Source: an uncultured Clostridia bacterium
Lineage (GTDB): Bacteria; Bacillota; Clostridia; Oscillospirales; Ruminococcaceae
Direction of reading: 5' to 3'
Length of the DNA: 64,000 bases
NCBI GenBank assembly: GCA_944382875.1
Contig: CALWNQ010000013.1
Location: forward strand, 1 to 64,000
Position 1 is the stretch's first letter; each line of letters starts with the position of its first letter. Shown piece after piece: positions 1 through 21,210 of the stretch. The translations under genes were made by a program, and so were the position numbers. The notes under the pieces are model-generated. The model did not search any database and was not told where the DNA came from. It saw only the letters and a program-made list of their open reading frames with translations.

Positions 1-72
1 GATGCGGCTGCCAACAGCATTTTGTTCAATTTCCAGTTTGAGCATGCGCAAGTATGCGCCATCGAGTGCCAT
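1..72 (-). CDS. rqcH: RqcH / NFACT (FbpA-like) protein, 5' end only
   Basis: Only the first 24 codons lie in the window; the gene runs off the left edge. The peptide starts MALDGAYLRMLKLEIEQNAV and continues G-S-R-I, which matches the NFACT-N start (M-x-L-D-G...L...E...GxRIDKI). RqcH is the bacterial ribosome quality-control factor that binds stalled 50S subunits and recruits tRNA-Ala for C-terminal Ala tailing; older annotations call it fibronectin-binding protein A. The ATG at 72 follows an AAAGGAG at 78-84. Immediately upstream are a 25-codon mini-ORF repeating this N-terminus and a T-box leader. The assignment rests on a short stretch, so it is good but not certain. Confidence 0.72.
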   Translation of the reverse strand, partial: MALDGAYLRMLKLEIEQNAVGSRI

Positions 73-85
73 AACGACTCCTTTC

Positions 86-163
86 TTATGCTGGAAAATG
101 CTGTCCAGCATTTTGTCCGATTTCGAGTTTGAGCATGCGGAGATATGCGCCGTCGAGTGCCAT
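86..163 (-). CDS. 25-residue mini-ORF copying the RqcH N-terminus
   Basis: The ATG at 163 is preceded by AAAGGAG (169-175), and the frame closes with TAA at 86-88, 13 bases before the rqcH start. The peptide begins MALDGAYLRMLKLEI and ends GQNAGQHFPA. Eighteen of its first 19 residues equal those of rqcH, although six of those 19 codons differ in DNA; five of the six differences are synonymous and the other is Gly/Glu. It sits between the T-box terminator and rqcH. It could be a translated leader peptide, a regulatory decoy, or the scar of a tandem duplication of the gene's 5' end. Confidence 0.6.
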   Translation of the reverse strand: MALDGAYLRMLKLEIGQNAGQHFPA

Positions 164-180
164 ACAATCTCCTTTCCCGT

Positions 181-470
181 ATGAAAAAACGCCTTCCGGG
201 GAAATCCCCGGAAGACGAGCAATCTCGTGTTACCACTTCCGTTTACTCTGGCCTCACAGTCAGAGCCTCTGCCGGTACATTCTATACCGTTCCGCTGTAA
301 CAGGCGGTCCTGTCGCAGTCTCAGACGCATTCTATGCGCTTCGGTGCGCCGTTCGGGGGCTACCTTCCTCTTTTGCCGCCTGTTTTCCTTCCAGCCCCGG
401 GAAAAATCCCTTAGGAAAACTCTCTGAAAGCCCGGTCAAAAGGCTACTCTCCCCGTCATTACGTTTGTTT
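181..470 (-). ncRNA. T-box leader (tRNA-sensing riboswitch) upstream of rqcH
   Basis: Reading the minus strand: an AGTA motif in GGGGAGAGTAG (about 440-455), a CAGAGAG bulge element (421-427), then the specifier-side GAGGAAGGTAGCCCC (about 357-371). The T-box core AAGTGGTAACACGAG follows at 224-238. The antiterminator pairs GGAAG/CTTCC and ACGAG/CTCGT. The competing terminator CTTCCGGGG-attt-CCCCGGAAG plus a T run (183-213) uses the same CTTCC, giving the usual mutually exclusive pair. The UGGU bulge implies a tRNA with discriminator A. Specifier register is ambiguous: GUA (Val) fits the discriminator best; GGU (Gly) and GCC (Ala) are alternatives. No aminoacyl-tRNA synthetase gene lies downstream in the window. 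Confidence 0.85.
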
Positions 471-475
471 TTCTC

Positions 476-504
476 ATTTTATCACGTTTTTCCGGGAATG
501 TCAA
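476..504 (-). promoter_or_regulatory. Sigma-A promoter for the T-box / rqcH transcript
   Basis: On the minus strand, TTGACA (499-504), a 17-bp spacer, then TAAAAT (476-481). The start site near 469 lies just before stem I of the T-box. Confidence 0.85.
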
Positions 505-606: not shown

Positions 607-2028
607 ATGCAGAAAAAGCCGAATATCCTTTTCATTCTCACAGATGACCAGCGTTTTGACACCATCCATGCTCTGGGAAATCCGGCGATACAGACGCCGA
701 ATCTGGACCGGCTGGCAGCGCGGGGGACTGCTTTCCGGCGCGCTCATATCCCGAGCGGTACCTGCGGCGCTGTCTGTATGCCCAGCCGTGCGATGCTCAA
801 CACTGGCCGGCATCTGTTCCATCTGGAGGATTTAGGGCAGGATATTCCGGAATCCCACACCACAATGGGGCAGGCATTCCGGCAAAATGACTGGCAGACC
901 ATCGGCATTGGGAAATGGCACAATGGCTGTCCCGCCTATGCCCGCAGCTTTGAAACAGGCGGCTCCATCTTCTTTGGCGGAATGTGGGATCATTGGAATG
1001 TCCCGGTCTGCCGTTACGATCCCTCCGGACAGTATGACAACACCATCAATTTTGTGGTGAATTTCTTTGACAACAATCATATCATCGAGCAGCACTGTGA
1101 CGAGTTTGTACCTGGCAAACATTCCAGCGAACTGCTGACCGATACCGCCATTTCGATGCTGCGGGAGCATGCGGGCGGGGAGAAGCCGGTGTTCCTTTAT
1201 CTTGCTTATCTGGCGCCGCATGATCCCCGGACGATGCCCGAAAAGTTCAAAAAGATGTATGATCCCGAAAAAATCGAGCTGCCTGCCAATTTTCAGGAAA
1301 CCATCTCGATGGAATATCCGCTGATGCTTTTCCGGGATGAACACCTGGCGGCTTATCCGCGGAATCCGGACGAGATCCGCCGCCACATTGCGGAATATTA
1401 CGGGATGATCTCCCACTTGGATTTCGAAATCGGCCGTTTACTGGATGCTCTGGAAGAATCGGGAGAAGCAGACAATACGATCATCGTCTTTACCGGGGAC
1501 AATGGACTTTCGCTGGGACAGCACGGCTTCATGGGTAAGGAGGACATTTTTGACCACAGTGTCCGGGTGCCGCTGATAATGGCAGGTCCTGGAATCCCGA
1601 AAGGGGAACAGACCGACGCTTATGTTTACTTGTACGATATTTTCCCCACACTGTGCAGCCTCTGCGGCATCCCGGTGCCCGAATCGGTGGACGGAAAGAG
1701 CTTTGCTCATCTGTTTTCCGGCGGGGAAAAGCACCGCGACCGGCTCTATCTTGCCTTTGACAACCTGATCCGGGGAATCAAGGAAGAGCGATACAAGCTG
1801 ATTGAATACGCGGTTGGACCGGAAGAAAAGGATTGTTCCACCTTTGTTTTTGATTTGGAGGAAGATCCCTTTGAAACCCACAACCTTGCCGGACTTCCGG
1901 AATATGCACCGATACTTGAACGGCTGCGTGGGGAGCTGCTGGAAGCAAGCGAGGAGTGGGAAGAAAGTAAGCATCCGATGGGGATAAAATTCTGGCAGAA
2001 TTACCGGCATTCTCCCCGGAAACAGTAA
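607..2028 (+). CDS. Type I sulfatase, Cys-type (formylglycine-dependent)
   Basis: A 473-residue alkaline-phosphatase-superfamily sulfatase. The start shows NILFILTDDQRFD (metal-binding Asp pair near residues 13-14). The sulfatase signature C-M-P-S-R-A-M-L-N-T-G begins at Cys57, the residue oxidised to formylglycine. The C-terminal half carries IIVFTGDNGLSLGQHG, the second metal site. Because the motif is Cys-type, maturation in an anaerobe would need a radical-SAM anSME enzyme, not seen here. No signal peptide is visible, so it is probably cytoplasmic and acts on imported sulfated sugars. RBS GAGGAGG precedes the ATG. The substrate is not known; the neighbouring alpha-mannosidase suggests host glycan fragments. 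Confidence 0.9.
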   Translation: MQKKPNILFILTDDQRFDTIHALGNPAIQTPNLDRLAARGTAFRRAHIPSGTCGAVCMPSRAMLNTGRHLFHLEDLGQDIPESHTTMGQAFRQNDWQTIGIGKWHNGCPAYARSFETGGSIFFGGMWDHWNVPVCRYDPSGQYDNTINFVVNFFDNNHIIEQHCDEFVPGKHSSELLTDTAISMLREHAGGEKPVFLYLAYLAPHDPRTMPEKFKKMYDPEKIELPANFQETISMEYPLMLFRDEHLAAYPRNPDEIRRHIAEYYGMISHLDFEIGRLLDALEESGEADNTIIVFTGDNGLSLGQHGFMGKEDIFDHSVRVPLIMAGPGIPKGEQTDAYVYLYDIFPTLCSLCGIPVPESVDGKSFAHLFSGGEKHRDRLYLAFDNLIRGIKEERYKLIEYAVGPEEKDCSTFVFDLEEDPFETHNLAGLPEYAPILERLRGELLEASEEWEESKHPMGIKFWQNYRHSPRKQ

Positions 2029-20973: not shown

Positions 20974-21002
20974 TTGCGTTTTTGGCGAAATTTCTATATA
21001 AT
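20974..21002 (+). promoter_or_regulatory. Promoter for the cobalamin operon
   Basis: TTGCGT (20974-20979), a 17-bp spacer, then TATAAT (20997-21002), just before the riboswitch. Confidence 0.85.
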
Positions 21003-21009
21003 AAAGACA

Positions 21010-21210
21010 GACATCCGCGGTGCACCAGTGTAATGCTGGTGAGAATAGGGAAGCCGGGTGAAAATCCCGCGCGGGACCGCCGCTGTAACAGGGGAGCCAT
21101 GCACGAACAAGTCACTGTGGTTACACATGGGAAGACGTCGCATGGCATTGATTCTGGAGCCAGAAGACCTGCCGCGTGATGATGGTTGCACAGCCAACGG
21201 ACTATTTGGC
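21010..21210 (+). ncRNA. Cobalamin (B12) riboswitch
   Basis: The aptamer carries the expected landmarks: GGTGCACCAGTG-like P3 region near 21018, the conserved GGGAAGCCGGGTGAAAATCC segment at about 21049-21068, GACCGCCGCTGTAAC at 21075-21089, and the B12 box AGCCAGAAGACCTGCC at about 21160-21175. It is followed by a terminator hairpin (21261-21292) and then cbiM, so bound adenosylcobalamin should stop transcription of the whole operon. Confidence 0.95.

Follow-up and report, generated by a model that had tools for sequence, protein, structure and literature searches.

A predicted valine T-box leader in front of rqcH and valS in an uncultured Clostridia bacterium

Introduction

A T-box leader is found directly upstream of rqcH at the left end of a 64,000-nt stretch of DNA from an uncultured Clostridia bacterium (Ruminococcaceae). 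This stretch is hereafter called the window, and coordinates refer to it unless a contig is named. RqcH adds alanine using tRNA-Ala. The locus raises two questions: which tRNA is sensed by the leader, and whether the leader serves the ribosome quality-control gene or a synthetase gene. Anatomy, specifier, tRNA match, gene order and conservation are given below as read from the sequence. Switching and co-transcription are given as predictions.

Results

Anatomy of the leader

The features of the leader are the following.

208..468, minus strand: T-box leader (RF00230), full length (66.5 bits, E 3.4e-14).
476..504, minus strand: sigma-70-type promoter, TTGACA-17-TAAAAT (11/12 consensus matches, extended -10 TG).
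421..425, minus strand: AGAGA, the first T-loop of the elbow-binding double T-loop motif in Stem I (identified by sequence).
389..393, minus strand: second T-loop UGGAA (identified by sequence).
399..410, minus strand: inserted 4-bp hairpin GGGA-UUUU-UCCC, separating the two T-loops (AGAGA, UGGAA) at the apex of Stem I (comparison of leaders).
210..240, minus strand: antiterminator GGAAG...CUUCC, with the T-box bulge UGGU at 235..232 (fold of 262..208; Rfam alignment).
190..217, minus strand: intrinsic terminator, 12-bp stem followed by UUUUUU (terminator pattern; folding z).

The match to RF00230 (468..208, cmscan and cmsearch) covers model positions 1-219. The leader is one of the 14 T-boxes detected in this 2.8-Mb genome by covariance search. 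Its 66.5 bits are below the Rfam gathering score (93), partly because of the insertion at the Stem I apex, and by score alone it would not be listed in Rfam. Despite this score, the T-box in front of rqcH is genuine and anatomically complete. The first-pass annotation, which had described a T-box before rqcH that is complete and has a promoter of its own, was right on these points.

The two T-loops correspond to the consensus of the double T-loop found at the Stem I apex (AGAGA and UGxRA; PMC7583486). An S-turn (GAGAGUA/GAA), a specifier loop (GGAAGGUAG) and the T-box sequence (UGGUAACACG) are also present. The folding z relative to shuffled sequences is -2.53 for the whole leader and -4.75 for the terminator. 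The segment CUUCC (214..210) is common to the terminator and the antiterminator, and the two predicted helices are mutually exclusive. Minimum free energy folding of the whole leader did not give the T-box fold, which rests on the covariance model instead. In relatives, the terminator stem is retained with two-sided changes, the switch helices and the specifier are conserved with compensatory changes, and TTGACA/TAxxAT-like elements are likewise found upstream of the T-box.

Two other features of the window were recorded. A sulfatase-family gene (607-2028, plus strand) is divergent from the T-box and has its own promoter-like site (537-565). A cobalamin riboswitch is found at 21001-21190 (plus strand, 107.6 bits).

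Specifier and sensed tRNA

361..363, minus strand: specifier codon GUA (Val), in GGAA-G-GUA-G-CCC (Rfam alignment).

GUA lies in the side bulge of Stem I and is followed by the expected purine (GAA-G-GUA-G). The segment GGAAGGUAGCCC is invariant in all eight aligned leaders and is also kept in five more (L096-L100). The specifier had earlier been read as GUA, GGU or GCC depending on the register, and a check against the Rfam T-box model had been proposed. In the family alignment, GUA alone occupies the specifier position, so that the predicted specifier is unambiguous: valine. The genome encodes a tRNA-Val(UAC) whose discriminator base is A73. This tRNA is compatible with both the GUA specifier and the UGGU bulge, which pairs with A73. 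It agrees with the earlier remark that UGGU calls for discriminator A and that Val was possible.

The gene downstream: rqcH across a contig break

1..72, minus strand: first 24 codons of rqcH, the remainder being at contig C33:1-1712 (20-nt overlap; Pfam/NCBIfam).
C33:1785-4478: valS, 897 aa, 72 nt after the rqcH stop (TIGR00422, 1123 bits).

The window starts at base 1 of contig C13; its edge is thus the contig edge. The ends of C13 and C33 share exactly 20 nt, and no other contig end has a matching overlap. The sole NFACT match of the genome begins at the left end of C33. The joined protein has NFACT_N (451 bits) and NFACT-R_1 (56 bits) domains. By these domains, the gene downstream of the T-box is RqcH (NFACT), as the earlier reading presupposed; its Ala-tailing activity is predicted.

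The only valS of the genome directly follows rqcH. Neither promoter-like sites nor forward terminator-like sites were found in the 72-nt gap. T-box, rqcH and valS are thus read as one operon, whose co-transcription is predicted, and, since valS follows on the next contig, rqcH heads a valine-starvation operon. The statement of the first-pass annotation that the T-box serves rqcH rather than a synthetase holds no further than the contig edge, since valS is the next gene after rqcH. The contig edge, the doubled rqcH start and the downstream valS had all escaped that annotation. In this genome, the link to valS spans a contig break joined by 20 nt only; in relatives, T-box, rqcH and valS are found on one contig.

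Duplicated rqcH start

86..163, minus strand: 25-codon ORF (MALDGAYLRMLKLEIGQNAGQHFPA and stop), which partly duplicates the start of rqcH and has a GGAAAGGAG site of its own (identified by sequence).

This ORF repeats the start of rqcH (MALDGAYLRMLKLEIGQNA...), so that the first 19 rqcH codons occur twice (the real start is at 72). Over these 19 codons, the copies show five synonymous codon differences and one non-synonymous one. The extra start was found in no examined relative and is specific to this genome. Since the two copies differ as two working alleles would, it results either from recombination between diverged alleles or from a chimeric assembly where the contig ends. The duplicated start adjoins a short inverted repeat (AAAATGCTGGACAGCATTTTCCAGCAT) and the contig edge.

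Relatives

Among named relatives, Candidatus Merdivicinus intestinigallinarum (L093; Oscillospiraceae in the NCBI taxonomy) is the nearest, with an RqcH that is 92% identical. L093 and L094 seem identical in sequence to G003 and G001, respectively. All seven genomes of the genus (Candidatus Merdivicinus) carry the T-box immediately before rqcH. In five of them (this genome, G001, G003, G004 and G005), valS is found after rqcH, which covers every genome of the genus whose contig extends that far; in G002 and G006, the contig that carries rqcH yielded no valS. The order T-box, rqcH, valS is also found in five additional genomes (L096-L100, Candidatus Faecivivens among them). The T-box and rqcH are therefore kept together in relatives, a point on which the first-pass annotation had proposed a check. 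A synthetase gene between T-box and rqcH, which would have indicated a local deletion, was looked for in relatives and not seen. In G036 (C57, L023), the Val T-box and rqcH are separated by a GNAT acetyltransferase gene, and valS remains downstream.

In several members of the genus, rqcH and valS are separated either by a Y1-transposase-like gene or by a longer gap; an extra promoter may be present between the two genes in such genomes. Between rqcH and valS of L093/G003 (L093:6713-7222), a weak match to an IS200-like Y1 transposase was obtained (PF01797, 19.8 bits, below the cut-off). The sequence following rqcH looks similar in G002, G004 and G005. The Y1-transposase-like gene is absent from the genome of the window.

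In a sample of 138 genomes from the order, adjacency of rqcH and valS was restricted to this family. Other family members carry rqcH-valS without a nearby T-box. In the other family genomes checked, no T-box was found near rqcH-valS, neither in L095 nor up to about 5 kb upstream of nine loci (G011, G016, G021, G029, G115, G139, G151, G168, G174). The T-box thus belongs to the Merdivicinus/Faecivivens group and G036. Several of the T-box-less pairs follow a nif3-type gene (named by eye from reading frames; L095, G009, G016, G029). In many other relatives (e.g. G048, G010, G042, G049, G033), a T-box is found directly before valS. In G047 (C27), from a different family of this order, valS is preceded by a weak T-box (44 bits), and rqcH is found about 1.4 kb after valS, i.e. 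in the reversed order.

Since relatives have the gene pair without the T-box, the pair is the broader state. In the simplest history, the rqcH-valS pair would have come first, and one branch would then have acquired a Val T-box upstream of it.

Hairpin inserted at the Stem I apex

The hairpin at 399..410 is found in six Merdivicinus genomes (G000, G002-G006). It shows two-sided, covarying pair changes: the outermost pair is G-C or U-A, the innermost A-U, C-G or U-G (read by eye). It is absent from G001, G036 and L096-L100.

Discussion

Proposed mechanism

The leader is very probably a tRNA-Val-sensing transcriptional (class I) T-box that drives rqcH-valS. The switching steps are established for the family (PMC7583486) and would apply to this leader as follows. 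The anticodon of uncharged tRNA-Val(UAC) would pair with the GUA specifier, its elbow would stack against the double T-loop of Stem I, and its 3'-ACCA would pair with the UGGU bulge, which would stabilise the antiterminator. RNA polymerase would then continue into rqcH and next into valS. When tRNA-Val is charged, the terminator (217..190) would form and the expression of both genes would be low. As rqcH is promoter-proximal, RqcH would be co-induced with ValRS on valine limitation. The earlier idea that amino-acid shortage raises RqcH would thus survive, for valine, as a consequence of the operon structure.

Alternative readings

Other registers are available within GGAAGGUAGCCC, and the leader could in principle sense tRNA-Ala (GCC) or tRNA-Gly (GGU) instead of tRNA-Val. 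This is extremely improbable: the Rfam alignment sets GUA at the specifier position with a purine after it, GCC belongs to the 3' side of the helix at the base of Stem I, the tRNA-Gly(GCC) of this genome has U73, which mismatches UGGU, and the synthetase of the operon is ValRS. Both registers were rejected on the alignment position, on U73 and on the presence of valS downstream. An equally negligible chance is given to a functionless relic of a lost synthetase gene, which the first-pass annotation had suggested. Such a relic would fit what is seen up to the contig edge, where the view is truncated, but valS directly follows rqcH, and compensatory changes preserve the switch helices, with the specifier likewise conserved.

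A T-box dedicated to rqcH, selected to link amino-acid starvation with ribosome quality control and with valS as a passenger, deserves more weight and is still very unlikely. It would agree with the promoter-proximal position of rqcH in all Merdivicinus-type loci and with the adjacency of T-box and rqcH, which is kept in at least 12 genomes. However, the specifier calls for Val and valS lies downstream, whereas RqcH uses tRNA-Ala and therefore has no direct tRNA match to a Val T-box. Furthermore, a T-box lies directly before valS in many related genomes, and no rqcH T-box without a downstream valS was found among the loci whose contig could show it. The leader is therefore an ordinary T-box of a Val synthetase operon in which rqcH is the first gene. 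It is neither a stand-alone rqcH T-box nor a relic.

Comparison with known systems

Like the T-boxes of Bacillota valS operons (RF00230, class I, Val), this leader has a Stem I with GUA, a double T-loop, a Stem III, an antiterminator/terminator, a matching tRNA-Val and valS downstream. It differs from them in that rqcH precedes valS and in that the Stem I apex of G000 and G002-G006 contains the additional 4-bp hairpin next to its second T-loop. Wels et al. 2008 (PMC2494555) described operons whose T-box matches the specificity of their synthetase while the synthetase gene comes after the first gene. The same work lists two streptococcal genes (spr0489, str0474) behind Val T-boxes as 'Val-tRNA ligase related hypothetical'. 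The present operon resembles those of PMC2494555 in its T-box of matching specificity and in its synthetase not being first; it differs in that its first gene is rqcH, which encodes a known ribosome quality-control factor. RqcH itself is like other Bacillota RqcH/NFACT proteins (NFACT_N and NFACT-R_1, full-length protein), but is here under a Val T-box. In a literature search with limited coverage of subscription journals, no paper placing rqcH behind a T-box and no relevant paper on rqcH/valS were found.

Meaning of the arrangement

The tempting reading of a T-box serving a ribosome-rescue gene alone is corrected by a synthetase gene located one contig away. That rqcH leads this Val T-box operon for an adaptive reason appears rather unlikely, with some chance of being true. 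If it were, valine shortage would both stall ribosomes at Val codons and release the T-box, and the tagging factor would be made when it is needed. The operon is a naturally occurring example where RqcH levels should track tRNA-Val charging, which makes a link between starvation and ribosome quality control testable.
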